The notes under the pieces: generated by a model
Told to the model about the DNA's origin: nothing
The model's input: the letters and a program-made list of their open reading frames with translations, nothing else
The model's database searches: none
IMG/VR virus record: IMGVR_UViG_3300025674_000456
Location: 1-22,071 of that record
Source of the DNA: a virus
Strand: one strand, 5' to 3'
Length of the DNA: 22,071 nt
Program-made: the position numbers and the translations under genes
Shown here: piece after piece, positions 860 through 17,976 of the stretch
How positions within the stretch are numbered: the first letter of the stretch is position 1
Layout of the letters: each line of letters begins with the position of its first letter

Positions 860-1069
860 TTAATTTATTTTAAATACCAGTGCAACAATTATTCCAATCA
901 TAGTGGTTAAAATAAAAGCAGTAGAAGCAAGCATAATTCTCTCTAATCTATGAACATCATCACGAATAGCATCAATTTTTTTATTTGTTTCTTCTTGCAT
1001 AATTCTACAAAGCCTCTCATGGTCATCGATTCTTTGATGAGCTAATAAATCTTTACTATCTTCTTGCAT
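860..1069 (-). CDS. Small coiled-coil plus C-terminal membrane-anchor protein, holin/XhlA-like
   Basis: This 69-residue protein has a charged, heptad-like helical part (about residues 5-45, many E, D, K, R with I, L at intervals) and one hydrophobic span (about 46-66, LASTAFILTTMIGIIVALVF) ending in a short KIN tail. The arrangement of cytoplasmic coiled coil and single C-terminal membrane helix is that of XhlA-type accessory holins and of some spanin or membrane-adaptor proteins. Its ATG overlaps the stop of the large internal virion gene by one base (TAATG), so it is probably translated by re-initiation late in infection. That timing fits lysis. No endolysin is recognisable in the window. 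Holin is the preferred reading, not a proven one. Confidence 0.5.
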   Translation of the reverse strand: MQEDSKDLLAHQRIDDHERLCRIMQEETNKKIDAIRDDVHRLERIMLASTAFILTTMIGIIVALVFKIN

Positions 1070-5357: not shown

Positions 5358-5818
5358 TAATTAATCTCCTTTGTATATAAATATCTTTTAACACCCCAAC
5401 CTTTAGTCTTTAAAAAAGACTGCCAACCAGGTCTTGCATGTACAGCAATTCTTTTACAATTATTTACTCTTGCTGCTTTTTCTATTGTATCAGCAAGTTC
5501 GTCTTGCCACAATTCCCTCTTCTCTCCTTTAAGAAGTAAAACTTCGCATTGAGAAAAATTAGGAAGAACCATAATTCTTAAAACACATACACCAAATACT
5601 TTATATTGAATACCATCATCAGAACCAAACATCATATATAAACCAAACTTACCTTCCATGATGTATTTTTTTAAGTCTTCAATACTCATCGGCTCACCAT
5701 CATATTTAAGACCTTCTCTCAACATGAACTCTACCAAGTTCCAATACTCATCTAACATAGATGGTAGGATCTCAAGAACCTGTACGTCTTTTTCTATTTT
5801 AGTTTGTTTTGCTTGCAT
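5357..5818 (-). CDS. GNAT-like protein (T7 gp13-type internal virion or acetyltransferase-like)
   Basis: This 153-residue protein has an alpha/beta order matching the GNAT fold: an N-terminal strand (VQVLEILPS), a helix, FGLYMMFGSDDGIQYKVFGVCVLRIM as beta 2-4 (about 58-83), a central strand CEVLLLKG (91-98), a long helix ELADTIEKAARVNN (107-120), strand KRIAVHARPGW (122-132) and a closing FLKTKGWGVKRYLYTKEI. Small GNAT-fold proteins in this position are known from T7-like phages (gp13) among the internal virion proteins. The classical Q/R-x-x-G-x-G/A acetyl-CoA loop is not clear, so catalytic activity is doubtful. It overlaps the upstream 311-residue gene by 20 bases and the downstream Gln-rich gene by one. 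The fold call is moderate; activity is uncertain. Confidence 0.5.
   Translation of the reverse strand: MQAKQTKIEKDVQVLEILPSMLDEYWNLVEFMLREGLKYDGEPMSIEDLKKYIMEGKFGLYMMFGSDDGIQYKVFGVCVLRIMVLPNFSQCEVLLLKGEKRELWQDELADTIEKAARVNNCKRIAVHARPGWQSFLKTKGWGVKRYLYTKEIN
5366..5372 (-). promoter_or_regulatory. Ribosome binding site inside the GNAT-like gene for the Gln-rich gene
   Basis: AAAGGAG on the minus strand lies 8 bases before ATG at 5357, within the last codons of the GNAT-like gene. With the TAATG overlap this lets the Gln-rich protein be made both by re-initiation and by direct ribosome entry. Confidence 0.7.
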
Positions 5819-6734
5819 TGACTAAATCGTAAATTCTTTTAAATTTTTTTTGTTGATCATAAAAGAAGTCAGCTCCAGCTTTTCTCATGCTTTTAAAACT
5901 TTTTGGATCTGCTCCAGATAAAATACCTGCACCTAATACTGCATCTGCACGAGATACAAATTCACCATCAGCTAACTGAGCTAACATTGTGTCTTCATCT
6001 TTATCTCCATTACCGGCACCGTCTTCTACATAGCCTTGTGCTCTTACATAATTGTTATGATCATTTTCGTCATGATCTGTTTTAGATGGTAAATAGTTTA
6101 CACCACCATGATTATATTTTTTAACTATCTCCGCTAGTCCACCTTGGTTTGCATAAAACATATTTGAACCATATACTTGCTCTCTTGTAGGCATCGTGTT
6201 TGTAGCTGGTACAAAAGCACCTTCTAATTTAGCAGCTTGTTCTTCATAAGCTTTTCGATAATCCTCTTCTGTAAACGGTGGTTCAGGAGCTTCTTCTTCA
6301 GGTGCTAATAATGGTAATACAGTTGAAGCTATTAACGCACTTTCAAGTGGTTTCTTTTTTGCTTTTTCTAATATTGCTTTAATACCTGTTGGAGCTGCTT
6401 TATCAACAGTAGCACCACCTCCTCCTACTATTACTTCGGATGTTGGAGAACTTTCCGCTATTTGAGCTACTACATTTGGATCCATGAATTGTTTACCATA
6501 AGTTGCTGCTTGTGGAATAGTTTTTAAACCTTGAGTTGCTCCATAAGTTGCTTGTGATCCACCAATACCTAGTGAAGATAAAGGTGCTCCTTGAAATGCT
6601 TGTACGCCTCCAAGTTGACCTAAACCATATGCACCCCCTCCTATAAGAGCTGCATCTTTTAAAGCAGTTCTGGTTGATTTTCCTCTAAGTTTTTGTACGC
6701 CAAATGTGGCTAATGCTAATGTAAATGGATCCAT
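5799..6734 (-). CDS. Putative virion-associated protein with LADGEFVSRADAVLGAG motif
   Basis: This protein has 311 residues. The N-terminal half is Gly/Ala-rich with apolar stretches (ALIGGGAYGLGQLGG at 29-43, ALIASTVLPLLAP at 133-145). It is followed by an acidic Pro-rich linker, GG motifs (NQGGLAEIV at 197-204, NHGGVNYL at 208-215), and a segment dense in Asp, Glu, Asn and His (about 219-249). Near the C-terminus is LADGEFVSRADAVLGAG (254-270), a motif I recognise as recurrent near tail or internal genes of marine phages, then a basic helix. Nothing catalytic is seen. It is the first gene after the glycosyltransferases and opens the block of internal proteins. The acidic segment could bind divalent cations. 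The role is otherwise unknown. Confidence 0.45.
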   Translation of the reverse strand: MDPFTLALATFGVQKLRGKSTRTALKDAALIGGGAYGLGQLGGVQAFQGAPLSSLGIGGSQATYGATQGLKTIPQAATYGKQFMDPNVVAQIAESSPTSEVIVGGGGATVDKAAPTGIKAILEKAKKKPLESALIASTVLPLLAPEEEAPEPPFTEEDYRKAYEEQAAKLEGAFVPATNTMPTREQVYGSNMFYANQGGLAEIVKKYNHGGVNYLPSKTDHDENDHNNYVRAQGYVEDGAGNGDKDEDTMLAQLADGEFVSRADAVLGAGILSGADPKSFKSMRKAGADFFYDQQKKFKRIYDLVNASKTN

Positions 6735-6769: not shown

Positions 6770-7663
6770 TTACTTAGGTAATATCAACTCGTCAGCAAAT
6801 CGTCCTTCATACTGATGTTCACCAATATGAGCAATAGGATCATCGATAAAGGCGTAACATTTACCCCCTATATCTCTCCATAATTTACAGAAAGAAAAGT
6901 CTTCTCCTAAGTAAGTTTTTTCTACTGGATCATGAGTAGTATCAAAGAAGTTCCATAGATGAGGCATCGTAACATACTGACCATTTATAACTGTTTTTTG
7001 TACAATGTTTTTGTCTGGGTATTTTTCAATCATTTTAGTAAAGACAGATCTTTTAATTAACATACATCCAGTTGGACTATGGGTTACTTCAATAACTCCT
7101 CTATCAACATCTACGTTATCATTATTAGGTATCTTCATTGGGTAAGTATGTAAAGATTTTCTTATATCATCCGCATTTTTAATTTTACCTTGTTTCATTT
7201 TGTCATAAGCTTTGTCCCAACGTAATGTTTTTAATGGATAAGGTATAGAGATTACATCTTTATCTCTTTCAATCATTTTAAATATAGACTCTGCATTAAA
7301 TAAAATATCTGAATCAACAAATAATAAATGAGTCATAGGGGAACTTAAAAACGAAGATACACATAGATTTCTTCCTTGAGTAACTAAAGAAGATTTCATT
7401 ATTTGAAAAGTTACATCTACATTTTTTTGAAAACAAAGTTTTTGAAACTCTAATAAACCTTGTGCATAATGAATAGAGCAATCACTATGAACAGGTGTTG
7501 CAACAAATACAGAATAAGGTGCTTTATCTAATTCTAGTTTAAAAGGTTTATTATTATTTTTCCATAATGGTGTAATATTTTTTTGATAAGGCTCTGAGTT
7601 TACTTTTAGTTCTTTTAAAGTTTGATAGGTATCTGGATTAACATAAGTTTTATTTTCTTTCAT
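6770..7663 (-). CDS. GT-A type glycosyltransferase (family 2/Anp1-like)
   Basis: This 297-residue protein opens its catalytic domain with VFVATPVHSD (52-61), then IMKSSLVTQGRN (88-99), then THLLFVDSDILF (111-122). D117 and D119 form the DxD motif that holds the metal and sugar nucleotide in GT-A enzymes. YPLKTLRWD (142-150), SPTGCMLIKRSVF (196-208) and GEDFSFCKLWRDIGGKCY (253-270) follow, the last matching the acceptor-side 'ED' helix of family 2-like enzymes; H279 and H283 come after. It presumably transfers a sugar to a phage or host acceptor in the cytoplasm, since no signal peptide or membrane span is seen. The gene overlaps the GT-B gene by 14 bases, so the two probably act in sequence. 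The donor and acceptor are unknown. Confidence 0.75.
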   Translation of the reverse strand: MKENKTYVNPDTYQTLKELKVNSEPYQKNITPLWKNNNKPFKLELDKAPYSVFVATPVHSDCSIHYAQGLLEFQKLCFQKNVDVTFQIMKSSLVTQGRNLCVSSFLSSPMTHLLFVDSDILFNAESIFKMIERDKDVISIPYPLKTLRWDKAYDKMKQGKIKNADDIRKSLHTYPMKIPNNDNVDVDRGVIEVTHSPTGCMLIKRSVFTKMIEKYPDKNIVQKTVINGQYVTMPHLWNFFDTTHDPVEKTYLGEDFSFCKLWRDIGGKCYAFIDDPIAHIGEHQYEGRFADELILPK

Positions 7664-8579
7664 TGATAGCTCCTTTTAAGAAACTTTCCCATTCCATTCC
7701 CTTTTTATGCCAATTATAAAATCTTTTATAAAACTTTTGTTGTTCTTCTAAGTGATTTTGTATAAAATCTTCGTGCAAATAATTAGCTGCAACTTCGATA
7801 GCTGCTGCCGTAGCTATAGCCATAGTTTCATAATTTTTATTATAATTAATATACACTGGCCACTCTGCACAAGTTTCATAGAGTGCACCAAAGTTATTAG
7901 TAATTACATGAACTCCTGCTGCTAATGCTTCCATAGCAGATACACAAAAAGTTTCTTCAAAAACACTAGGATAAACATACATATCATATTCATTCATATG
8001 TTCTAAAATATATTCGTTTGGTTTGTAACCAATATAGTTTACATTAGGTAATTGTCTTGCTTGTTCATATAAAGGTTTAAACTGATCATCATTTTGTTGT
8101 TTAAAAGCATCTCCATATACTTGAGTAGAACTGTAAACATCTAAAGTAATGTTAGGATTTTTTATTTCTTGCATTGCTCTTAAGACAACATTCAATCCTC
8201 TCCAAGGTGTGTTGTGATGTAATATTTTTATAGGTTCACCCTTTTTATATATTTTTCTTTTGGGAAAATTGTTTACTCCGTTTTTAATTACTGTAGATCT
8301 TTCAGTTGGTATATCAAAGAAGTATCTAAATTTTTCATAATTCCAATGACTATTAAATACATACCAATCATATTCTTTGTGTCTTGCTTTGTTACCAAAA
8401 AACTCTTGAAGGTTAGGTTGATCCCAAGAATTCTTTTGCCATAATATATTTACTTTATTAGGATCAATTGGAACTTTACCAGGAACAGAAGTACATATTT
8501 GTACTTGATCGAGTAACTCTTTTGGAACATGCTTATGCAGCATTTCCATTTGTATTTCAGTAGCACCTCTTGGTTTCAT
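7650..8579 (-). CDS. GT-B type glycosyltransferase (family 4-like)
   Basis: This protein has 309 residues. The C-terminal Rossmann domain carries the family 4 signature: ILHHNTPWRGLNVVLRAM (119-136), NVNYIGYKPNEYILEHM (179-195), then YVYPSVFEETFCVSAMEAL (201-219), where E209 and E217 give the EX7E motif. AAGVHVITNNFGALYE follows. The N-terminal acceptor domain is short (about 100 residues, with YVFNSHWNYEKF at 73-84), so it is smaller than typical bacterial family 4 enzymes of 350-400 residues. No signal peptide is seen. Its start overlaps the oxygenase gene upstream by one base (TAATG), and its end overlaps the GT-A gene by 14. The family call is strong; the substrate is unknown. Confidence 0.82.
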   Translation of the reverse strand: MKPRGATEIQMEMLHKHVPKELLDQVQICTSVPGKVPIDPNKVNILWQKNSWDQPNLQEFFGNKARHKEYDWYVFNSHWNYEKFRYFFDIPTERSTVIKNGVNNFPKRKIYKKGEPIKILHHNTPWRGLNVVLRAMQEIKNPNITLDVYSSTQVYGDAFKQQNDDQFKPLYEQARQLPNVNYIGYKPNEYILEHMNEYDMYVYPSVFEETFCVSAMEALAAGVHVITNNFGALYETCAEWPVYINYNKNYETMAIATAAAIEVAANYLHEDFIQNHLEEQQKFYKRFYNWHKKGMEWESFLKGAINERK

Positions 8580-9091
8580 TAATTTCTTTTATTTATAAAT
8601 AAATTTATGGTTAATCTTCCGTTTTCTATTGAATCACCATGATGTCCATAACCTTTATGATTATAGTTTCCATCATACATAATAAACCTGTTGCTAACAA
8701 ATTTTATATCATTAATCAAGTTTTTATTATCATCAAATAAATATGTCCCTGAATTTAAATTAGTTTCAGATATATATATTAAAGCAGCCAAATCATCAGG
8801 ATCTTTATGAATCCAGTCTTTAGGATTATCTTCTTCTAATCTTAAATGAATAAATGATCCAATTTGCCAAACTCCATGATCTAATAATTTTTTTTGATGT
8901 ATTAAAGATGTAATGTATTCGTGAAAGATAGGGTTAGTTGTACCTAAAAACCTACTTCTCAAACCCGGCCAATAACTTTTTTGATTTTCTAATTTTTCAA
9001 ATTCTTCTGAAGAATAAAGTTTAATTTTTTTTATTTCTGGTAGAATAAAATTTAAATTAGGAAAAAAGTTTTCTTCCTGTATTAATTTCAT
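8579..9091 (-). CDS. 2OG/Fe(II) oxygenase-like protein (DUF6445-like)
   Basis: This 170-residue protein starts with WPGLRSRFLG (41-50), characteristic of DUF6445-type members of the double-stranded beta-helix oxygenases. The metal site is visible: DWIHKDPDD gives H95 and D97 of the HxD motif, GNYNHKGYGHH gives distal H145, and GRLTINLF gives R159, which would bind the 2-oxoglutarate carboxylate. Strands AALIYIS, SGTYLFD and NRFIMYD lie in the expected order. The family is expected to hydroxylate a small molecule or protein side chain using O2 and 2-oxoglutarate; the substrate is unknown. It overlaps the glycosyltransferase gene by one base and the 65-residue gene by four (ATGA), linking hydroxylation and glycosylation in one coupled run. 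Confidence 0.75.
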   Translation of the reverse strand: MKLIQEENFFPNLNFILPEIKKIKLYSSEEFEKLENQKSYWPGLRSRFLGTTNPIFHEYITSLIHQKKLLDHGVWQIGSFIHLRLEEDNPKDWIHKDPDDLAALIYISETNLNSGTYLFDDNKNLINDIKFVSNRFIMYDGNYNHKGYGHHGDSIENGRLTINLFINKRN

Positions 9092-9285
9092 TCTTTTGTT
9101 TTTGCGCCCATTGTAACTTTAGTAACTTTGATTTCGAGGTCTTGTCTAAAGTCATCCACAGTAGTGTCAGTATTGGGGTCAGCAACATCAGAATCAAAAT
9201 CAGCTTTGCTAGCATATATCTTTCCCGTTCTTTTGTTTTTAATAATTTCTTTTGCTTCCGCAGGTATTTTAACTAATTCACTCAT
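9088..9285 (-). CDS. Small conserved marine-phage protein, unknown function
   Basis: This 65-residue, mostly polar protein contains KNKRTGKIYASKADFDSDVA (17-36), then DTTVDDFRQDLEIKV (40-54). I recognise this kind of short protein from cyanophage and pelagiphage structural regions but know of no function for it. No membrane span, signal peptide or metal motif is present. It sits 2 bases after the 42-residue basic protein and overlaps the oxygenase by 4 bases. The tight spacing on both sides and the clean reading frame support it as real. Confidence 0.6.
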   Translation of the reverse strand: MSELVKIPAEAKEIIKNKRTGKIYASKADFDSDVADPNTDTTVDDFRQDLEIKVTKVTMGAKTKE

Positions 9286-9287
9286 AA

Positions 9288-9416
9288 TTATCTTCCTTGT
9301 TTGTTGTACTTCTTATAACTCCTTTTCTCGTTTTTGTTAAGTCTTTTTTTGTGACGACCTGGCCTCTTAGGAGGTTTCTCTCTAGGGACGTAGTGTACAA
9401 ATTTTTGTTTAGCCAT
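9288..9416 (-). CDS. Very small basic protein (42 aa), conserved style in marine phages
   Basis: The frame runs from ATG (bases 9416-9414) to TAA (9290-9288). It encodes a 42-residue protein with about half its residues Lys, Arg or His. It starts MAKQKFVHYVPREKPPKRPG, continues with RHKKRLNKNEKRSYKKY and ends NKQGR. The pattern of an aromatic start, a Pro-Lys hinge and a Lys/Asn tail resembles tiny proteins seen in cyanophage and pelagiphage tail regions. The charge suggests binding of DNA, RNA or an acidic partner. The start overlaps the upstream oxygenase stop by 8 bases (ATGGCTAA), and the stop lies 2 bases before the next gene, which supports a genuine gene in a place that would otherwise be one of the larger gaps. 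The function is unknown. Confidence 0.7.
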   Translation of the reverse strand: MAKQKFVHYVPREKPPKRPGRHKKRLNKNEKRSYKKYNKQGR

Positions 9417-9978
9417 TATGCAATCTTACATTAAATGAAATAGATATTCTAGCTTTCTCTTCTTTATGGGGCATTACCATATGCTTAAAATAAGAAGGAA
9501 AAAGAATAAAGATATTATTTTTTGGTTTTATACTATAATGATGAAAAAAATCATTATCATTAGATATATAAGAACTTATATCTGAAAAAACTGAAATATC
9601 TGTATTATAGAATAGTAATTCACCCCCTGTTTCCGTAGTATCTATATAATAAACTCCAGAAAAATGAGAATTAGGATGAATATGAGCTATATTAAAATTA
9701 TCTTTATAATTTTCATTTATCCACAAATTACATAACTGTATATTCTTAGTTTTTATTTCATAATGTTTATTTAAAGTTTCAACACATTTTTCACCAATTG
9801 TTTTTAAAATAAATTCATTAACGATATCATGAGATTGAAAACCACCACGATTAGTAATAACTCTACCTTTATTTAAATTTTTATTTATTTGTAATTCTTT
9901 AATAATTTCTTCTTTTAAATTATTATTTATAAATTCTTCTACAATAATAGATTGAGTAAAAATTGTATGTTTAGCCAT
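9409..9978 (-). CDS. 2OG/Fe(II) oxygenase-like protein (TIGR02466/2OG-FeII_Oxy_5 style)
   Basis: This 189-residue protein follows the TIGR02466-like family. Its parts are RGGFQSHDI (44-52); NIAHIHPNSHFSGVYYI (96-112) with H99 and H101; GGELLFY; ILFPSYFKHMVMPH (158-171) with distal H166; and ARISISFNVRL (176-186) with R177 placed to hold 2-oxoglutarate. In this family the HxD aspartate is commonly replaced around the H-x-H-P-x-S segment, so the exact ligands cannot be assigned here. The base composition is very AT-rich compared with the flanking structural genes. The gene overlaps the structural gene upstream and the small basic gene downstream by the same 8-base string. The reaction is probably a hydroxylation; the substrate is unknown. 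Confidence 0.72.
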   Translation of the reverse strand: MAKHTIFTQSIIVEEFINNNLKEEIIKELQINKNLNKGRVITNRGGFQSHDIVNEFILKTIGEKCVETLNKHYEIKTKNIQLCNLWINENYKDNFNIAHIHPNSHFSGVYYIDTTETGGELLFYNTDISVFSDISSYISNDNDFFHHYSIKPKNNIFILFPSYFKHMVMPHKEEKARISISFNVRLHNG

Positions 9979-10309
9979 TTTGATCGGATCTATTTATTTC
10001 CAAAATAGATACCACAGCTGTGACTCCAGTGCTAGTATTAGATTCTAAATTAAGAATATCACTCTCTTCTAAGATAATTGGACCTTTAGCTATATTACAT
10101 ATTGTAGGACCCGTGATACTTGCATAGGCTATTTGAATAGTAGAGGTATTAGTTGCATCTGTGATGCTTGCTTTTACAACCTTGCTACCAGATTCGTTTG
10201 TCACTTGTATATTCTGTATGATCGCTCTCGAATTAGATGGAGAGGTATATACAGCTATCGCTGATGTAGTAGTCGGTGCAAAGAATGCGTTTTTATAAAT
10301 ATTTGCCAT
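9971..10309 (-). CDS. Small beta-rich virion protein
   Basis: This protein has 112 residues. MANIYKNAFFAP, then AVYTSPSNSRAIIQNIQVTN (19-38), ASITDATNTSTIQIAYASI and an end in VVSILEINRSDQNG give an alternating Thr/Ser/Val/Ile pattern expected of a beta sandwich. I recognise the 'vYT-P-nsraiIqniqvtN' opening from tail or decoration proteins of marine phages, without a known precise role. It is flanked by the 409-residue virion protein (one-base TAATG junction) and the oxygenase (8-base overlap). Gene context supports a tail or decoration component, inferred. Confidence 0.5.
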   Translation of the reverse strand: MANIYKNAFFAPTTTSAIAVYTSPSNSRAIIQNIQVTNESGSKVVKASITDATNTSTIQIAYASITGPTICNIAKGPIILEESDILNLESNTSTGVTAVVSILEINRSDQNG

Positions 10310-11538
10310 TATGTCAAATCAACCCATTTTAAAGTACCACAGATGTCATCACCATTAGATGCACCTTTAGCACATAGTGTTAATGTATCAGAAGAACCAG
10401 CAATTGTCTGTCCTAGCTGATAAGAAAAGTTAAACCCATCTTGTGCAAATTGTAAATTGTTTGCACCTTTACCAGATAAATAAGCTTGGCCTACAACCGT
10501 TCCACCTGTAATTGTTGTTGTTCCTGTTAAATCATATTCTACATTATCAGAATAACTCGTGTATGAAAATGCGGTGCTTGGTGTTGCATTGAGTCTTAAT
10601 TCTATTTGAAAATCAGAGTTAGAAATAGCTGACGCTGCAATGTCAATTGGAATAATCACTGCATATGGTCTACCAGATTTAATTCTAATCGTTGCTAAAT
10701 TATAATATGTTCCTGCTGTTGTTAAATTAACTCCGCCTAATGAAGCCGTTCCGATAGATTGACGTAATCCTTCTGGTGCATAACCTCCTTCAATCATAGC
10801 GGTTGAACATACTTGTTGCAATACTGCTGCACCTGATATAGTCCCTGTAGTTTCTATTTCATATCGGATAGGTAAGTTTGCCGTTTGCATATAAACGGTT
10901 GTTAAATCATTTGCATTTAAAAATGTATGAGCTGTAATAAATTTACCATCTATTACAAAACCAACTCTGACTGCTCCCATACCCAACCATTCATAATCAG
11001 TAAATAAAATTGTGGCCTTATCTACATTTAAAGTATATCCACTCGCACCACTACCATCTAGTTTATCACCGTTCCAAGAGGATTGAGATATTTCAGTATC
11101 TACTGCAGATCCAGTTACATAAGTACGTCTAACAATTTTTAATGTTGTACCATCAGCATAAAAGAATATTCCATTGTTTGCATCAAACGTTCCTACCTTT
11201 TGTTTAAGGTCTGCTTCTGGAGTATTCATTACAAATGTATTTAATATCAATAATGATTTACCGGGTTGATAACTCATAACTCTTTTAGATTGTCTAATAA
11301 CTTTGTCACCACTAGCTGTAGTTACATTTAAATTAACTGTAGATTTATTAGCAGTATAAGTGACTGTTCCTGATCCAGTTAAGTCTTCATCAAAGAGATC
11401 ATTCTTTGACATAACATTTTTAGAATCAAATATAGTAAGTGGATTAGAAACTCTTAATCGCCCAAATGCATCATAGGCAGTAGATCCATCTCCACCACCA
11501 ATAACTGTTGGTTCAACGTTGACATTATTACAACTCAT
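10309..11538 (-). CDS. Virion structural protein (tail or fibre component)
   Basis: This 409-residue protein begins with a Gly-rich lead and AFGRLRVSNPLTIFDSK (24-40), then SKNDLFDEDLTGSGT (44-58), GDKVIRQSKRVMSYQPGKS near 77-95 and EGGYAPEGLRQS about 250-262. This signature is recurrent in structural proteins of cyanophages and other marine phages. The rest is beta-rich, with Thr, Gly, Val and Asn and few charged helices, which suggests a jelly-roll or beta-sandwich fold. Upstream it is separated by one base from the 55-codon ORF; downstream it overlaps the 112-residue gene by one base. No enzyme motif was found. It is probably part of the tail tip or a side fibre. Confidence 0.6.
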   Translation of the reverse strand: MSCNNVNVEPTVIGGGDGSTAYDAFGRLRVSNPLTIFDSKNVMSKNDLFDEDLTGSGTVTYTANKSTVNLNVTTASGDKVIRQSKRVMSYQPGKSLLILNTFVMNTPEADLKQKVGTFDANNGIFFYADGTTLKIVRRTYVTGSAVDTEISQSSWNGDKLDGSGASGYTLNVDKATILFTDYEWLGMGAVRVGFVIDGKFITAHTFLNANDLTTVYMQTANLPIRYEIETTGTISGAAVLQQVCSTAMIEGGYAPEGLRQSIGTASLGGVNLTTAGTYYNLATIRIKSGRPYAVIIPIDIAASAISNSDFQIELRLNATPSTAFSYTSYSDNVEYDLTGTTTITGGTVVGQAYLSGKGANNLQFAQDGFNFSYQLGQTIAGSSDTLTLCAKGASNGDDICGTLKWVDLT

Positions 11539-11539
11539 A

Positions 11540-11707
11540 TTACCTCGAAATATACCAAGAAAGTCTTTCGACTTCCTGTTTTAATTCTTCTTGAAAGCTT
11601 GTATTTAATTGATCTTGAACTGTACGAATAGCTTGAGCTATCTGTCTTTGGTTTTCTTGTCTATATTCAGGAGTAGGCTCAGGAATACCTGCATTAATTT
11701 TAGCCAT
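11540..11707 (-). CDS. Small helical protein (55 aa) in the tail operon
   Basis: The frame runs from ATG (11707-11705) to TAA (11542-11540). It encodes MAKINAGIPEPTPEYR, a helix QENQRQIAQAIRTVQDQLNT, then SFQEELKQEVERLSWYISR. The Pro-rich lead followed by one long amphipathic helix with an aromatic end suggests a coiled-coil or oligomer-forming peptide, such as a chaperone or structural clip. The start overlaps the 28-codon ORF by 8 bases (ATGGCTAA), and the stop lies one base before the 409-residue virion gene. The regular amphipathic pattern and exact fit between neighbours make a chance ORF unlikely. It resembles short proteins I associate with marine phage tail regions; the role is unknown. 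Confidence 0.7.
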   Translation of the reverse strand: MAKINAGIPEPTPEYRQENQRQIAQAIRTVQDQLNTSFQEELKQEVERLSWYISR

Positions 11708-11786
11708 GTAATGCTGCTCCTCTTTCTTTAGATGAGAATCCAGGTTGTGCTCTTAATGCTTCTAATCCAAATATATCAGGTTCCAT
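11700..11786 (-). CDS. Tiny ORF (28 aa) between the nozzle-like gene and the 55-aa gene
   Basis: This short frame begins at an ATG that shares one base with the stop of the 634-residue gene (TAATG) and ends in an 8-base overlap with the next start. The protein reads MEPDIFGLEALRAQPGFSSK then ERGAALHG. Two perfect overlaps on either side, a plausible amphipathic sequence, and no other frame filling the interval argue for translation by re-initiation. At 28 residues chance cannot be excluded. No function is recognised. Confidence 0.45.
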   Translation of the reverse strand: MEPDIFGLEALRAQPGFSSKERGAALHG

Positions 11787-13690
11787 TATCCCCTCATTCC
11801 GTCAGGTTGTACATCTGCTCTAAAGGTACCAAATCTCCAGTTTTGATCTGTTGAGGTGTTTGCAATTTTTAAACTAGCAAACCTAGACCTAGCACGGGTA
11901 TCTATTTTATCAGTTGAACTATTTATTGTAAAGGGTCCAAGGGGTGAAGACACTGCTCCATCAGCAGGATAATCTCTTAAATTAATTGTTATTTGAGCGT
12001 CACCTGTTAATAATTTAAAGTCTGGTACAAATCTTCTCATACTAATAAATACTTCTCCTTCACCTAAATTAAAATCACCAGATTGTATAAATGCAGGTAT
12101 TGCTGTTTTAGCGCCTGTTGAATCCACTTCATTATTACCAATTTCATGAGCATAATATGTAGATGCTCCGTTTACATTTGTTACACCTTGTATAGTTGGA
12201 AATGTTGGTGTGCCAGTTGAATTAAATTTAGTTGCATATGGGTTGTCGTATAATGTAGCATCAGCCCAAGAGGTTCTGTCCATAGAACCTGTAGTCCAAA
12301 CATTTTCTTCATAGTTATAAGATACCACTCTATCGACTTTTTCAGATCCTGATTTAGGGTAAAACCAATTAATCTCACTATATAAATGATTTAAACCTGC
12401 GTAAACAACTTCTCCTGAATTGTAATTAATACCTAGATTATTACCTTTGTTAGTAAATACAAAATCTTCTACTAAACAAGGGAGAGCTTTTACAGTACCA
12501 TCGTATACAAAGAAACCACCTGCTTGACCCATCCACCATACAGCTCCATTAACGTATTTAATCGCATGTTGGCCAATAGCTCCACAATTACTTCCTACTT
12601 GTCTAATAGAAAAAGTAAATGGTGGACCCACAAACTGCATAACATAAGCAGCAGTATCGGTAAGTATTAAAATATAATCTTTAGCTTTAGCAGCACCTAC
12701 TATTTTAACCCCAGAGTCTAGTCTAAATGTTCCCGCAGTATTAATTGAAGTTGGTGTGTAATCTGAGATATCTTCTTGATCAGAAAATCTTATAAACATT
12801 TTATCTTGAGGATTTGCACCTCCTATTGTTGTTTGAGTTCCAAGTAAAATTAAATGTCTGTCTCTTTCAGAGACAATCGACATAACGGATTTTGTCGGAG
12901 CACCACTAACTACAGTGGCTCTTGTAGTTAATGCAGACGGATCCGAATGTATCGGACTCCATTGAAATGTTTTACCATTTTTAACTGTTGCAATAAGTAT
13001 TTCACCAAAGTGGTCTAGTGACCATGAGCCAGGATCTAATATAACAGAAGAAGTTGTTGAGGCAGAACCCCAAGTTCCTCTTGACCAAGAGCCTGTTCCC
13101 CAACCGTATCCATAAGTTTGTGATAATGGACCAACAGTTGCATATGGATTAATGTCTGCAGAACCACTTGCAGAAGTGGTTGCAGTTGCTGCCGCAGCCA
13201 TTGTAATTGTAAACGTATCCGCATCGGGTGCAGTCACAACTTGAAAAGTATTTGTTTCAAAATCAGCAGCTACATAACCAGCACCTGAAGGTGGTGTTAC
13301 ATTTGTAAATGTAAATAAGTCTCCTGCAATCAAACCATGTGCTACATAGTTTACGGTAACAGTAGCTGAAGTATCTGTGGTATCAAATGTTGCACCTGTA
13401 AGTGCTGTATCAAGAGGAGTGATATCATAAAATGAACCTTCGTAATAAATAAATAATCCTTTGTTAGTACCTAAAGCTGCGTACTTTCTGCCATCTAAAT
13501 CTGCCCAAACTAACTGTTCTCTAACAGCACCAACTAAAGTAGAACCAGTTATCTGCTCCCACCCACCAATTTTTTCTGGTAGACCATATCTAAATCTAAC
13601 AAAGTCACCATCTGTCCATTGCCCTTCGGCTCCTGTTTCTGTGACTTGTTTGTTAAATCCTGGTCTTATCTGTACGTTTGTTAAAGGCAT
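11786..13690 (-). CDS. Large tail protein, probable nozzle / P22 gp10-like stabilization protein
   Basis: This protein has 634 residues. It starts MPLTNVQIRPGFNKQ, then GQWTDGDFVRFRYGLPEKIG (23-42) and GGWEQI, and continues with propeller-like strands such as REQLVWADLDGRKYAALGTN. GLFIYYEGSFYDITP, SERDRHLILLGT and AVWWMGQAGGFFVYDGTVKA repeat the theme of short strands with aromatic and Gly turns. This style is that of nozzle or stabilization proteins that cap the adaptor in short-tailed phages (P22 gp10, T7 gp12). Such proteins are about 470-800 residues, so the length fits. It follows the oxygenase cassette after 29 bases. The assignment rests on overall style and context rather than a clear family motif. 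Confidence 0.55.
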   Translation of the reverse strand: MPLTNVQIRPGFNKQVTETGAEGQWTDGDFVRFRYGLPEKIGGWEQITGSTLVGAVREQLVWADLDGRKYAALGTNKGLFIYYEGSFYDITPLDTALTGATFDTTDTSATVTVNYVAHGLIAGDLFTFTNVTPPSGAGYVAADFETNTFQVVTAPDADTFTITMAAAATATTSASGSADINPYATVGPLSQTYGYGWGTGSWSRGTWGSASTTSSVILDPGSWSLDHFGEILIATVKNGKTFQWSPIHSDPSALTTRATVVSGAPTKSVMSIVSERDRHLILLGTQTTIGGANPQDKMFIRFSDQEDISDYTPTSINTAGTFRLDSGVKIVGAAKAKDYILILTDTAAYVMQFVGPPFTFSIRQVGSNCGAIGQHAIKYVNGAVWWMGQAGGFFVYDGTVKALPCLVEDFVFTNKGNNLGINYNSGEVVYAGLNHLYSEINWFYPKSGSEKVDRVVSYNYEENVWTTGSMDRTSWADATLYDNPYATKFNSTGTPTFPTIQGVTNVNGASTYYAHEIGNNEVDSTGAKTAIPAFIQSGDFNLGEGEVFISMRRFVPDFKLLTGDAQITINLRDYPADGAVSSPLGPFTINSSTDKIDTRARSRFASLKIANTSTDQNWRFGTFRADVQPDGMRG

Positions 13691-13719
13691 AAAATATTAT
13701 ACCTTATTTAAGTGGTAGG

Positions 13720-14196
13720 TTAAAGATAGTCTATTTCTAATATAACCATGTAATTAGTATCTGTTTGAGTATGTATTTTAAAGGGTGTTCTTCTATCAAA
13801 AATTAATACTCTATTTTCTACAGCTTCTAGTTTAGATTCTAATGTTTCAACATAACCATTCGAGCTATTAATAAAAAATACGGCTTTATTATTTAAACAA
13901 AAATTTTCTAAATCTAATCTATTAGGGATTTCTCTTTGAGATTTATTATTTGTAAAAAGACTTAATTGACAAAAATTAATTTTTTCTACTTTTAACTTTT
14001 TAATTATATCTTCTGTTATAGGTTGAAAAAAATCTGAATTTATAGATATTTTATTATCGACTTTGTCTATTATCTTGTGGGATAATATAAAAGGGTTTTG
14101 ATTAACAATAAACCATGGAAAATTAACACTACTTATTATTTTTTGTATAAAAAATAAATGTTCATTATCAATAAAGTTATTAATAACATTAAACAT
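13720..14196 (-). CDS. Degenerate 2OG/Fe(II) oxygenase homologue, probably inactive
   Basis: This 158-residue protein keeps the frame of the marine-phage oxygenase family: FPWFIVNQNPF (26-36), a segment where HxD should sit, AVFFINSSNGYVETL (105-119), AVENRVLIFDRRTPF (125-139), and a final strand YMVILEIDYL. The metal-binding positions have changed. The expected HxD reads R93-L94-D95, and the expected distal His after the FD..TP turn is F139. The expected Arg on the last strand is missing (Met/Val at about 150). It therefore looks like a catalytically dead paralogue or a binding protein that reuses the fold. It overlaps the 77-residue gene by 8 bases. The alignment is by eye and the fold call is moderate. 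Confidence 0.5.
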   Translation of the reverse strand: MFNVINNFIDNEHLFFIQKIISSVNFPWFIVNQNPFILSHKIIDKVDNKISINSDFFQPITEDIIKKLKVEKINFCQLSLFTNNKSQREIPNRLDLENFCLNNKAVFFINSSNGYVETLESKLEAVENRVLIFDRRTPFKIHTQTDTNYMVILEIDYL

Positions 14197-14422
14197 CTTT
14201 TGGTTTTTCCCCCACTACTTTACTATCGTTATGAGTAGCTTCTTGTTTTACTGCATCTGGAAATTTTTCATTAAATTGCACAACCATCCTCATTAAACAA
14301 TTGCCGAAGTGTCTTAAAGATGAAGCACTTAAATATATTTTTTTATGTTTTTTAATAATTTTAATTTCGTGATCTTCAAAATTTATATCGCAAGAGCCAT
14401 CTTTTTTTTGTTCAAAGTTCAT
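14189..14422 (-). CDS. Small unknown protein in the oxygenase cassette
   Basis: This protein has 77 residues. The N-terminal part alternates charged and apolar residues (INFEDHEIKIIKKHKKIYLS, about 14-33), suggesting short strands, and is followed by an amphipathic helix (SLRHFGNCLMRMVVQFNEKF, about 35-54) and a polar tail. No family is recognised. It overlaps the 2OG oxygenase gene by 4 bases and the degenerate oxygenase by 8, so it is probably translated with them. It could be an adaptor or partner of the oxygenases; that is only an inference from coupling. Confidence 0.5.
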   Translation of the reverse strand: MNFEQKKDGSCDINFEDHEIKIIKKHKKIYLSASSLRHFGNCLMRMVVQFNEKFPDAVKQEATHNDSKVVGEKPKDV

Positions 14423-14967
14423 TTTTTTATCCCCACATAAGGTCTTTCATCTAAATAAAAGTTTTTATTTTTTCCTTCTGCATCAACATAATGTAAAAAG
14501 CTTTGAGCCTGCCAGTCTCCTTCAAATGGCTCACGCCAGTGTAATAGTTCACAACCAAGATATATAATAGCATCTCCAGGTTTAGTTTCAACTGGCTGAT
14601 CTTCCATATAAATAGGCCATTGAGTTTCATCACTACCAATATGAACAGTTACACTTATTTCACAAGAAGGACGATCTTTATGTTTTTTTAAATCTGAATA
14701 CTTTGTGTACATTCTCCAAAAAGTATAAGTAGGTAATAATTTTTTTCCTGTTTCAAGTTCCATTAATGATTTTTTACTTAGCATAAGGGACTCCATAATA
14801 GGGTCTGCATAAAAACAGGTATCCCCATTATTATTTTGATTATGATCAAAGTTAGTTTCATTTATTCTATGTACTATTTCACAATAGTTTTGTAATAAAT
14901 TCATTTCTTCTTTTGTTAAAAAATTATTTATTTTTTTAAATTTAAAATCTTTTCCTATAATGCCCAT
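14419..14967 (-). CDS. 2OG/Fe(II) oxygenase
   Basis: This 182-residue protein has the order expected of a phage prolyl-hydroxylase-like oxygenase. LPTYTFWRMYTKYSDLKKH (78-96) leads into H96-K97-D98 (the HxD pair). CEISVTVHIGSD (102-113), WPIYM, and KPGDAIIYLGCELLHWREPF (129-148) with distal H143 follow. AQSFLHYVDAEG closes the core. The usual Arg or Lys ten or so residues after the distal His is not obvious (Q153 or Q155 lies there), as in other marine-phage members I recall with the 'LLHWREPF' turn; R145 may serve. No signal peptide is seen. The gene overlaps its neighbours by 13 and 4 bases. The family call is strong; the substrate is unknown. Confidence 0.75.
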   Translation of the reverse strand: MGIIGKDFKFKKINNFLTKEEMNLLQNYCEIVHRINETNFDHNQNNNGDTCFYADPIMESLMLSKKSLMELETGKKLLPTYTFWRMYTKYSDLKKHKDRPSCEISVTVHIGSDETQWPIYMEDQPVETKPGDAIIYLGCELLHWREPFEGDWQAQSFLHYVDAEGKNKNFYLDERPYVGIKK

Positions 14968-15548
14968 GATACTACTGAATACCTTTCTCCTGAAATTACA
15001 GGTTGTACTGAATGAGGGTATAAAAAATTACTTGGCCAAATTATAAGTCTATTTTTTATCTTTTGAATTTCTAAAGTATTTTCTCCAATAGGTGTAGCAA
15101 ACATTAAACTACCCCCTTCATAATCATCATTAATTAAAAAAATACCAGATAGAGTTCTTGGAGTTTGCAAAGAGTGGTCTACGTGAAATCTATAGTGACC
15201 TCCTGCTGTATATTTTAAAATCGAAACATTTTCTAATTTAAATATTCCAGTATTATTTACGTCTTGAAAATATTTTTTATAATAAGTTTTAAAAACAGAT
15301 GTAAGATAATTACACCAATGAACCACAGTTAAACTTTTTTCATTTATGTTAGTTAAATTCCAAATTTTTGTATTTCTAATACTTTTATCTACTTTTTGTT
15401 TATCTAGCGCTACTATTTTACCATCTTCAAAGTAAGTATTATTTTTACATACTTTAAAAAGATTTTCTAAAACTTCACTTGAAAGAACATCATCATAAAT
15501 TCTTATATAAGAATTTAACAAAATAGGGTTTGGTTTATTTATTTCCAT
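14955..15548 (-). CDS. 2OG/Fe(II) oxygenase, prolyl 4-hydroxylase-like
   Basis: This 197-residue protein has all four expected active-site positions. ILKYTAGGHYRFHVDHS (110-126) supplies H122 and D124 of HxD; LSGIFLINDDYEGGSLMF (133-150) is the strand and turn before the core. NRLIIWPSNFLYPHSVQPV (166-184) supplies distal H179, and GERYSVVSWAL supplies R189 for 2-oxoglutarate. This matches the P4Hc-type domain, in which Fe(II) is held by H-x-D...H. The reaction is probably hydroxylation of a prolyl, lysyl or small-molecule substrate. It overlaps the DUF6065-like gene by 10 bases and the next oxygenase by 13. It has the best preserved site of the oxygenases here. Confidence 0.85.
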   Translation of the reverse strand: MEINKPNPILLNSYIRIYDDVLSSEVLENLFKVCKNNTYFEDGKIVALDKQKVDKSIRNTKIWNLTNINEKSLTVVHWCNYLTSVFKTYYKKYFQDVNNTGIFKLENVSILKYTAGGHYRFHVDHSLQTPRTLSGIFLINDDYEGGSLMFATPIGENTLEIQKIKNRLIIWPSNFLYPHSVQPVISGERYSVVSWAL

Positions 15549-16273
15549 GATTTTTTATTCCAAAATTTTTCTTTATAATTATTTATTATTTTAAATTGCA
15601 GAAAAAAATTTTCTTTAGCATTTTCGATAACAGTATCACTCTCTATTTTCATTTTCCATCTCTCTCTTTTAAAAGGTATAATTTGAACATAAGGTGTTCC
15701 CATTTTAATTACTGTATCTAAAACAGGATATTTATCTCCATTTATAATAAATGGAAAATTTATCTGTGTTGGAAATGTATCCGTATCTACAATTCCAGGT
15801 ATGATTGAAAATCGATCATCAGTATTGTTAAGAGGAGGAACAAACAAACATGAATAACCCGGAGGAGTTTTTATAATCCAAGGATTTAAAATTTTATAAA
15901 AAGGTAAATCTTTATTTTTATTTACATAGGGACATTCTTTACCTAATTGTGGATAAGGGTGTTCTTGTCCATTAGAATTTAAATTCATAAAATTAAGTTC
16001 TTTTCTTTCCGATAAAATTGTACTAAAAAAACTTCCTCTTTCTCCACCTTTAACATGATTATGTATGATTCTATAATCTAATGGCGTTTTTAAAAGATAA
16101 CCAGTAGTTAAGGTATCTAAAAAAGGCATACAACCTTTTATAGTTTTAAATTCAGGAGTATGTTTTAATTTTTTAAACCAATCTGGAATATGTAATTTAA
16201 TTGGTTCTGGTAAAAGTTCTGTTCTTTTTAAATACTCTTCCTCTACCTTGAATGTTAATATTTTTTCAAACAT
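15539..16273 (-). CDS. DUF6065-like protein, unknown function
   Basis: This protein has 244 residues. PIKLHIPDWFKKL (24-36), TIKGCMPFLDTLTTGY (44-59), KILNPWIIKTPPGYSCLFVPP (starting at 127), PGIVDTDTFPTQINFPF (159-175) and MGTPYVQIIPFKRERWKM (191-208) form a set I recognise from a widespread phage family of unknown function, tentatively DUF6065. Gly, Pro and aromatic residues between short strands suggest a compact beta fold. No catalytic residues can be named. It is the first gene of the tightly overlapping run 16273-13720 and lies beside an oxygenase, so it may process the same substrate or present it; this is inferred from coupling only. The base composition is notably AT-rich. Confidence 0.6.
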   Translation of the reverse strand: MFEKILTFKVEEEYLKRTELLPEPIKLHIPDWFKKLKHTPEFKTIKGCMPFLDTLTTGYLLKTPLDYRIIHNHVKGGERGSFFSTILSERKELNFMNLNSNGQEHPYPQLGKECPYVNKNKDLPFYKILNPWIIKTPPGYSCLFVPPLNNTDDRFSIIPGIVDTDTFPTQINFPFIINGDKYPVLDTVIKMGTPYVQIIPFKRERWKMKIESDTVIENAKENFFLQFKIINNYKEKFWNKKSWK

Positions 16274-16294: not shown

Positions 16295-16726
16295 TTATGA
16301 TTGTAAAGGTGATATGTATTCTATTGAGTTTGAAATTAAGTATTTTCCGAAACTTTCATTCATTGGAAAACTTACAGAAGAAGTATCAAAATTTTTTAAA
16401 AAATTACAATAATTTTGTATCTTTGTATAGTTACTATTTTCTTTACAAATACTTAACCAATTTTCAAAATGTTGAATTTCATGATTAATTACATTTTTTA
16501 ACCATTGTTCATTTTGAGGACCCATGGGTTCAGTAATATCTACAATATTATATACACCATTAGAGTATTCTACTGAAGCTGAAAATGTTCTTATTTTATC
16601 AAAATCAGAATTAGAAATTGTTACAATATCGTAATCTGAATCAATAATATTTAAATTAGATTTTTCCGCATCATCTGCAGCTACTTTAAATAAGTAATTA
16701 TCTTTAGTTGCAATTAAATATGCCAT
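16295..16726 (-). CDS. Unknown protein next to the tail fibre, possible fibre chaperone
   Basis: This protein has 143 residues. The first half looks like a small beta domain (MAYLIATKDNYLFKVA, VTISNSDFDKIR, GVYNIVDITEPMG); the second half is helical with NHEIQHFENWLSICKENS (81-98) and a C-terminal FGKYLISNSIEYISPLQ. HEIQH at 82-86 fits the HExxH pattern of zinc peptidases, but no third ligand or other peptidase motif is apparent. Position directly after the fibre gene is where tail-fibre assembly proteins usually lie, which is the preferred guess. A good ribosome site (GGAG) precedes the ATG. It is unrecognised by family. Confidence 0.5.
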   Translation of the reverse strand: MAYLIATKDNYLFKVAADDAEKSNLNIIDSDYDIVTISNSDFDKIRTFSASVEYSNGVYNIVDITEPMGPQNEQWLKNVINHEIQHFENWLSICKENSNYTKIQNYCNFLKNFDTSSVSFPMNESFGKYLISNSIEYISPLQS

Positions 16727-16737
16727 TTTCTACTCCA

Positions 16738-17976
16738 TTAAGCTTGTTCATTAGTTGTAAAATATAGACCACCGCCTACGCCAGGGTTACCGTTATATCC
16801 CTGAATTACTGCACCGTTTCCACCTGTACCGGCATCTCTAAATAATATTTGAGAATTAAAGTTTCCAATTGTTGCTCCTGGAGCATTTCCAGGGTTTCCT
16901 GGAGGAGGGGGTGAGTTTTGTGAAACCTGTCCTCCTTGTCCTCCATTAACAGTAAATAGTCCAGTCACACTTGTACTACCACCAGCACTACCAGCCTGGT
17001 TATCTGTTGGACCACCACTTCCTGGGGCTCCAACAGTATAAGAGTAAGGAGTAGATGCTGAAATAGGTCCAGAGTAAAAACCAAAACCACCTGATCCGCC
17101 CTTACTTCCAGGTACACCACCTAAGTTATTTATACGACCAGATCCACCGCCACCGCCTCCCCAGGCATACGCTTGGTATTTAGTAGCTCCTGATCCAGTT
17201 GTAAAACTTGATGAAGAGGGTCCTACGTTAAAAACTTTAGGATACATGTTGTTACCTCCTGCAGTACCAGAAGATGCAGCAGTAATTCTTCCATCTGCAT
17301 CGACAGTGATTGTTGCAACAGTGTACTCTTGAGCTGTAACTCCAGTTGCGATCAATTGAGTTGATCCAACAGAATCTGTAGCAAGTTTAGCTTGTGTAAT
17401 TGTAGATTGAGCAATGTTATTTCCTGTAACAGCAGATGCTGCTAGTTTTGCAGTAGTAACATTTGATGCTAAAATTTTATCAGTAGTAACTGCGTTGTTA
17501 GAAATTTTTGCAGCTGTAATTGCATTGTCATCAATTTGAGCAGAACCAATAGTTCCACCTAAAGTGTTTAATGCGATCTCATTTAAATTTGTTCCATCAG
17601 AATAAGCAGCAACGATTGCAGCTTCTCCTGCAGTGAAACCAGTTCCAGTTGCAGTTTTAATTGTTAAATTTGTTACTCCAACTACAGCAGATAAATCTAT
17701 AATGTAAAATTTTTCAATTCCATCTGGAATTGTTACAGTAGATGCAGTTGTTAAAGTTCCAGTAAATTTAAGAACCATATTTCTTGCATTGGATAATGCA
17801 GCGTTAGACATTGTAAGAGCTACAGTGCCACCATCAGTAAGTGCTATTGATTGATAACCTGCAATTGCTTGTTGAATTAAATTTAAATTGTTGTTTGTAT
17901 TAATACCCCATGTACCAGCGTTTTCGCCAGTGGCCATTAATTCGAGTTTTAGATCTGTTGAGTAACTAGATGCCAT
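16738..17976 (-). CDS. Tail fibre with decapeptide-repeat shaft and glycine-rich tip
   Basis: This protein has 412 residues. Residues 1-135 are an N-terminal module seen in many phage fibres (STDLKLELMATGENAGTWG, then NNLNLIQQAIAGY). A shaft of six 10-residue repeats spans 149-208. A linker EYTVATITVDADGRITAASSG (217-237) leads to the tip, where AYAWGGGGGGSG (269-280) and runs of GG, PG and GN continue to the end, ending in LYFTTNEQA. The glycine-rich end resembles receptor-binding tips built from polyglycine helices in other phage adhesins. The protein probably contacts the host surface. A strong ribosome site lies at 17986-17991. The fibre call is firm; the receptor is unknown. Confidence 0.8.
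   Translation of the reverse strand: MASSYSTDLKLELMATGENAGTWGINTNNNLNLIQQAIAGYQSIALTDGGTVALTMSNAALSNARNMVLKFTGTLTTASTVTIPDGIEKFYIIDLSAVVGVTNLTIKTATGTGFTAGEAAIVAAYSDGTNLNEIALNTLGGTIGSAQIDDNAITAAKISNNAVTTDKILASNVTTAKLAASAVTGNNIAQSTITQAKLATDSVGSTQLIATGVTAQEYTVATITVDADGRITAASSGTAGGNNMYPKVFNVGPSSSSFTTGSGATKYQAYAWGGGGGGSGRINNLGGVPGSKGGSGGFGFYSGPISASTPYSYTVGAPGSGGPTDNQAGSAGGSTSVTGLFTVNGGQGGQVSQNSPPPPGNPGNAPGATIGNFNSQILFRDAGTGGNGAVIQGYNGNPGVGGGLYFTTNEQA
17353..17532 (-). repeat. Six tandem 30-base units encoding a 10-residue fibre-shaft repeat
   Basis: Residues 149-208 of the tail fibre divide exactly into six decapeptides: DDNAITAAKI, SNNAVTTDKI, LASNVTTAKL, AASAVTGNNI, AQSTITQAKL and ATDSVGSTQL. 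Apolar residues recur at positions 5 and 10, with T or S at 6 or 7. At the DNA level the units have diverged, so the repeat is protein-level and probably old. A fixed 10-residue period with paired apolar residues is expected for a trimeric fibre shaft. Confidence 0.75.

Follow-up and report, generated by a model that had tools for sequence, protein, structure and literature searches.

Among the accessory genes of marine phages, those for 2-oxoglutarate (2OG)-dependent Fe(II) oxygenases are common and unexplained, and they are usually read as tools of metabolic reprogramming; one cyanophage has 24 of them (PMC9602691). The closest described systems are the HTVC023P-type pelagiphages, for which Wittmers et al. 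2022 (PMC9599517) reported eight non-orthologous 2OG-Fe(II) auxiliary metabolic genes (AMGs) and three glycosyltransferases (GTs). That 2OG oxygenase genes cluster in these phages with a 'ferrochelatase' gene, and also with GTs, is thus already known; the ferrochelatases always adjoin a 2OG oxygenase, and the label was used in that work for an iron-metabolism reading (PMC9599517), in keeping with the usual view of the partner as a gene of iron or heme metabolism. The label is at least as old as PMC3037559, in which cluster T4-GC 615 bears the name 'Hyp. with ferrochetalase domain', and the family, PHROG 2954, figures in a seasonal enrichment (PMC11561400). Here we analyse a virus record of 22,071 bases (IMG/VR record IMGVR_UViG_3300025674_000456, hereafter the window, meaning the whole stretch), and in particular the oxygenase cassette next to its tail fibre gene (the left cassette), which holds a member of PHROG 2954.

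Judged by its sequence, the window is part of the genome of an HTVC023P-type pelagiphage, a SAR11-infecting ocean phage. All major genes lie on the minus strand, and the virion operon is collinear with those of HTVC023P, a cultured SAR11 phage, and HTVC027P, which is also cultured; most backbone genes are 38-82% identical to HTVC023P. An earlier note on this DNA had placed two enzyme cassettes, with four oxygenase-type proteins and two GTs, inside the virion operon. Synteny with the two cultured phages bears this setting out, and the open reading frames (ORFs) concerned are all found where it had put them, on the minus strand. If the so-called ferrochelatase is in fact another oxygenase of the prolyl-hydroxylase-like kind, and if these genes pass on together with the fibre, the likely target of the enzymes shifts from host metabolism to the receptor-binding apparatus. 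Were this true, published ecological claims on phage ferrochelatases, the seasonal enrichment of PHROG 2954 among them, would need rereading.

Results

Inheritance of the left-cassette oxygenases with fibre type

Gene letters stand for window genes and their homologues alike: A (14955-15548), B (9409-9978), C (8579-9091), D (13720-14196) and F (14419-14967). Relatives were fetched with the backbone structural gene as seed and, separately, with the GTs. Fibre modules were typed by their accessory gene as W (window-like), L (HTVC023P-like) or C (collar type, HTVC027P-like); the types are mutually exclusive, and their accessory families have no detectable kinship to each other (hhalign below 1%). 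The comparison turns on the following window genes.

16738-17976, minus strand: tail fibre/tail protein with a conserved N-terminal domain and a glycine-rich C-terminal part (phrog_31104, E 2.8e-29)
16295-16726, minus strand: accessory gene marking the W-type fibre module (family in 21/21 W-type loci and, as the types are defined, in no L- or C-type locus)
15539-16273, minus strand: p7084, beta-rich protein of the W-type cassette, upstream of A (phrog_7084, E 1.5e-40)
14955-15548, minus strand: oxygenase A, 2OG-Fe(II), PKHD/PHD-like (PF13640, E 5.8e-15)
14419-14967, minus strand: oxygenase F, the 'ferrochelatase' of PHROG 2954, with a prolyl-4-hydroxylase fold by prediction (13-nucleotide overlap with A)
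11786-13690, minus strand: structural ('stabilization') protein, backbone marker (phrog_3287, E 4.2e-86)

We found that the oxygenases of the left cassette follow the fibre and not the backbone. On the tree of A, built from the best-scoring copy of each locus, fibre type changes twice among 53 loci, as against 10 changes on the tree of the adjacent structural gene; for F the figures are two (39 loci) and five. Two changes is the minimum for three fibre states, and W, L and C fibre types each keep their own clades of A and F. These tree tests of fibre linkage cover A and F of the left cassette. Presence and absence agree: an oxygenase is present in all 40 loci that have a fibre accessory gene and absent from six of the nine that have none (Fisher p 6e-6, relatedness ignored). 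The tail protein itself is divided, in that its first ~125 residues follow the backbone (the N-terminal tree needs 7 fibre-type changes over 48 loci). On the evidence of these trees, the swapped unit therefore appears to begin within the tail gene and to end where the structural gene starts (window position 13690), oxygenases included; fibre type tracks the trees of A and F but not those of the structural gene, the tail N-terminus or GT-B (below). In the literature searched we found no report of such lock-step inheritance of oxygenases with fibre type.

The modules differ in layout as well. W modules have the order p7084-A-F, L modules have forward arrays (one inverted) that lack p7084, and C-type modules have mostly inverted arrays; p7084 is present in 19/21 W-type, 0/22 L-type and 2/16 C-type loci. 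Proteins of the fibre region have glycine-rich or collar domains; in the window's tail protein Gly_rich_2 (PF21722) matches at E 2e-4, under its cut-off. The AlphaFold2 model of p7084 is beta-rich (predicted local distance difference test, pLDDT, 90.2), with no convincing match in the PDB: identity as a dUTPase was not supported, as the best match (E 4e-3, TM 0.39) was taken as a chance all-beta likeness, and neither was identity as another oxygenase (hhalign below 2% to every oxygenase profile).

The 'ferrochelatase' F and its partner A

F has no Pfam match. All 54 aligned relatives have the same HxD...H iron ligands (H96, D98, H143), and its structure is predicted with a pLDDT of 95.9. A Foldseek search with this model puts PHD2 (HIF prolyl hydroxylase 2) and the prolyl-4-hydroxylase (P4H) of P. 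putida on top (E ~1e-7, TMq at most 0.69); 431 PDB entries match at E <= 0.001, and the model has the double-stranded beta-helix of the P4H/PHD fold. We can thus assign F, with high confidence in the predicted structure, to the 2OG-Fe(II) superfamily fold of the prolyl-4-hydroxylase (PHD2) type. PHD2 (EGLN1) and the P. putida enzyme (PDB 4bqy, 4j25, 4iw3) are like F in predicted fold, including HxD...H, and differ from it in that their identity to the phage proteins is 13-18% and that F has a Gln at or near the place expected for the 2OG-binding Arg. This Gln, Q155, is invariant, as is R145, two residues past H143. The earlier note had seen HxD/HxH...H patterns in four oxygenase-type proteins, three of them also with a well-placed Arg; family models and alignments confirm the patterns, and the exception to the Arg is F.

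Identity of F as a ferrochelatase (HemH) was rejected: the fold is that of PHD2/P4H, and the PDB matches listed are 2OG oxygenases. There is no ferrochelatase family among the Pfam matches (E <= 1) of 54 F members, nor in NCBIfam. The S-SCSM1 record annotates its F homologue as a 2OG oxygenase. Neither a reassignment of PHROG 2954 to a prolyl-hydroxylase fold nor a published correction of the ferrochelatase label was found in the literature searched.

A is, together with B, the best supported oxygenase of the window, both matching Pfam 2OG-FeII_Oxy models above cut-off (for A, PF13640 at 56.5 bits, cut-off 27). Its relatives in the PDB, by sequence similarity, are the PKHD-type hydroxylase 3dkq (E 6.7e-5), PiuC and Egl nine homolog 1 (EGLN1). 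The earlier suggestion of collagen-type hydroxylation stands to the extent that both A and F have prolyl-hydroxylase-type relatives of known structure; its coupling to glycosylation does not (below).

Gene order and one gene fusion indicate that A and F are partners. A adjoins F on the same strand in 63 of the 83 F genes that do not lie at a locus edge, and is upstream in 57. Where A is adjacent, overlap of the two genes is usual, and its commonest length is the 13 nucleotides seen in the window. In Synechococcus phage ACG-2014f the two are fused into one 'ferrochelatase' of 362 residues, which is 39% identical to F over 171 residues and 30% identical to A over 190, with PF13640 matching the C-terminal half. 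A and F probably form a complex.

Glycosyltransferases

Two GT genes lie to the left of the oxygenases in the window.

7650-8579, minus strand: GT-B glycosyltransferase, GT4-like, backbone gene (PF00534, E 1.8e-15)
6770-7663, minus strand: GT-A-type glycosyltransferase, backbone gene paired with GT-B (phrog_1574, E 3.5e-37)

GT-B matches PF00534 at 57.4 bits (cut-off 26.4), and its E209-x7-E217 is invariant in 8 aligned sequences. For GT-A, Pfam gives a weak Anp1 match only; the metal motif D117-S-D119 is invariant in 8. The overlaps described earlier are real, GT-A and GT-B sharing 14 nucleotides and GT-B and oxygenase C sharing 1.

The GT pair is a fixed feature of the backbone and separate from the oxygenases, as far as gene content and trees can tell. 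Each of the 20 backbone-seeded loci that extend 5.5 kb or more downstream contains it. Between tail gene and GT, 49 non-redundant loci have 0-6 oxygenases, six of them having none and 43 both kinds of enzyme. Across twelve long records the pair is found once each, in the same relative place, with 0-7 oxygenases that are partly scattered, some of these records being fragments, so that absences hold for the sequenced parts. Phage DSL-LC04 has a type-B oxygenase among its fibre genes, and no GT-A homologue was found in it. On the GT-B tree fibre type changes 9 times (29 loci), close to random (shuffled mean 11.7, minimum 10).

The earlier note had proposed that hydroxylation and glycosylation form one coupled pathway. 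We rejected this coupling on presence and absence and on the tree comparison, because the two families occur independently in related genomes, the outcome that the note itself had named as refuting: GTs are without an oxygenase in the region in 6 of 49 loci, DSL-LC04 has an oxygenase without GT-A, and the GT-B tree does not follow fibre type. A tie of the oxygenases to fibre genes does hold for the left cassette, by the trees and the 40 of 40 loci above, with the GTs not part of it.

Two side observations concern GT-A. HTVC027P (MN698241) has a second, distant homologue elsewhere in its genome (3508-4158; phrog_1574, E 2.7e-20), and at one locus alone (L047:14270-14977 and 15007-15234) the gene is split into two ORFs, through either a broken gene or a sequencing error.

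Other oxygenase homologues and the backbone

The remaining genes of the two enzyme cassettes are as follows.

14189-14422, minus strand: small ORF of 77 residues between F and D (same-place homologues in L011, L014, L016 and L068)
13720-14196, minus strand: oxygenase homologue D, probable pseudo-enzyme (phrog_274, E 4e-11)
9409-9978, minus strand: oxygenase B, 2OG-Fe(II), at a second, smaller site between structural gene and GTs (PF13759, E 1.2e-21)
8579-9091, minus strand: oxygenase C, DUF6445/phrog_1644-like 2OG-type protein (DUF6445, E 1.7e-5, barely above cut-off)

B matches PF13759 at 77.4 bits (cut-off 27) and TIGR02466 at E 2.7e-22. The Pfam match of C is weak, but HxD, H and R are retained across its family (H95/D97 conserved at 90% or more; N134, H145 and R159 invariant) and its profile is clearly kin to those of A and B (hhalign probability ~97%). 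The second site, with B and C (8579-9978), has oxygenases in 15 of 49 loci.

The four oxygenase-type genes of the earlier count are real, and a fifth homologue, D, had been overlooked. By hhalign its profile matches that of A at 97.9% and that of C at 99.1%. D looks like a maintained pseudo-enzyme, probably catalytically dead, because HxD...H...R is gone from the window copy and from its 68% identical relative L006 and is kept in its phrog_274 relatives. The phrog_274 / T4-GC_100 label 'DNA endonuclease V (DenV)' was rejected for the members tested, which give weak matches to 2OG models or no relevant match, and none to a DenV family; they include window 13720-14196 and two S-MbCM7 genes (L323:7543-8016 and 8018-8539). 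Profile searches of PDB sequences with the alignments of F, p7084, GT-A, GT-B, D and C gave no useful match.

GC content is 25-29% in the enzyme-rich stretches as against 35-39% in most structural genes. Left of the GTs, the ejection/internal protein genes (5799-6734 and leftwards) diverge strongly among close relatives (L014, L016 and others), and at 1069-3657, in the same ejection/internal region, identity to HTVC023P is only 38%.

Discussion

Enzymes of the PHD2/P4H and PKHD/PHD classes act on proteins. The model that we favour, if tentatively and at slightly less than an even chance, is that the left cassette makes up the enzymatic half of a tail-fibre module that can be exchanged, with A and F hydroxylating the fibre or adhesin and the GTs being separate. 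It joins the fold classes, metal ligands, A-F pairing, co-inheritance with the fibre and GT independence, all computed here, with a hydroxylase activity, an A-F complex and a fibre substrate that we infer. In HTVC023P-type pelagiphages this half would consist of A, F, D and the genes at 15539-16273 and 16295-16726; the fibre region, the type-specific accessory gene and the matching oxygenase set would be inherited jointly and swapped between phage backbones, and each fibre module would be expressed along with the oxygenases that belong to it. A and F would make up a two-subunit protein hydroxylase (fused in one cyanophage). Its targets would be side chains of the fibre or adhesin encoded with it, or of the partner of that protein, oxidised during folding or assembly, and this oxidation could tune how the fibre folds, how stable it is or how it binds its receptor. 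GT-B and GT-A as a pair would serve a separate backbone function on its own substrate, either a virion protein or a host surface sugar. A bolder form of the model, that each fibre type has a dedicated A-F hydroxylase pair oxidising its adhesin and that post-translational oxidation is part of host recognition, is possible and, in our estimate, rather more doubtful. For phage oxygenases acting on fibres we found no direct precedent in the open literature searched.

Several observations weigh against the fibre model: (i) in F an invariant Gln seems to have taken the place of the usual 2OG-binding Arg, which leaves the co-substrate of F uncertain; (ii) when all 75 copies of A are kept, instead of one per locus, fibre type changes four times on the A tree; (iii) with the marker genes 1-3 kb away, the oxygenases may have been co-transferred simply as their neighbours; (iv) further oxygenases lie far from the fibre in HTVC023P-type records (G027, G029, G034, G018 and G010) and (v) F homologues occur in replication gene clusters of S-ShM2 and S-E7. 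Because of the last two points the A and F families are not exclusively fibre-linked.

The alternative that survives best, which we consider unlikely while taking it seriously, is that the region by the fibre is a hypervariable insertion site and that oxygenases with other targets (nucleotides, metabolites or host proteins) are swapped there by adjacency. Consistent with such hitchhiking, the number, order and orientation of the oxygenases vary widely, the cassettes are AT-rich, both families are found away from fibres too, and the island of the T4-like pelagiphage Mosig EXVC030M also holds heme oxygenase and bilin reductase genes. What it explains less well is the near-complete association of oxygenases with fibre accessory genes, the possession by each fibre type of its own A and F clades, and the recurrence of the fibre-A-F-D neighbourhood in that T4-like phage.

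An auxiliary metabolic role, with metabolites or proteins of the host as the targets of the oxygenases (in 2OG/nitrogen signalling, or with EF-Tu as an example of a host target), has been proposed for cyanophage 2OG oxygenases (PMC3037559, PMC9602691), and the fold neighbours of F do include the P. putida P4H that was solved with EF-Tu. We regard it as improbable, there being no reason for a host-metabolism enzyme to follow fibre type instead of backbone. Least probable of all is the pathway of the earlier note, in which the oxygenases hydroxylate and GT-A and GT-B then glycosylate the same fibre or tail proteins: all the enzymes do share one virion operon, GT-B overlaps an oxygenase gene in the window and both kinds of enzyme occur in 43 of the 49 spanning loci, but the GT pair persists where the region has no oxygenases, DSL-LC04 has an oxygenase without the GT-A family and the GT trees do not track fibre type.

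Comparison with known systems

Among cyanophages, F homologues have A adjacent in S-RIM50 and fused in ACG-2014f, as the partnership of A and F would have it; unlike those of the window, cyanophage A and F homologues often lie at a distance from any fibre gene, as they do in replication clusters. In S-MbCM7 the gene for the short tail fibre, gp12, has a 2OG oxygenase gene directly after it and another nearby.

Mosig EXVC030M, which is unrelated, has, like the window, A, F and D in that order downstream of a tail fibre gene; two ORFs lie between the fibre gene and A, and three more oxygenases follow D. No p7084 or W, L or C accessory gene was found among its ORFs tested. Its oxygenase array beside the tail fibre is followed by bilin genes and a neck gene; unlike in the window, heme oxygenase and bilin reductase genes (L324:7813-9049) directly adjoin the array, which shows that genuine tetrapyrrole genes enter this island as well.

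The pelagiphages of PMC9599517 belong to the same phage group as the window and have the same gene families. In that work the partner was held to be a real ferrochelatase and the genes together to be AMGs aimed at the host, and neither fibre linkage nor a fold reassignment was reported. The host recognition cluster of pelagimyophages (PMC7029224) resembles the window's left cassette in being a hypervariable island of SAR11 phages at the tail fibre that holds extra enzymes; its GTs lie inside the variable island, whereas in the window the GT pair lies outside it and belongs to the backbone.

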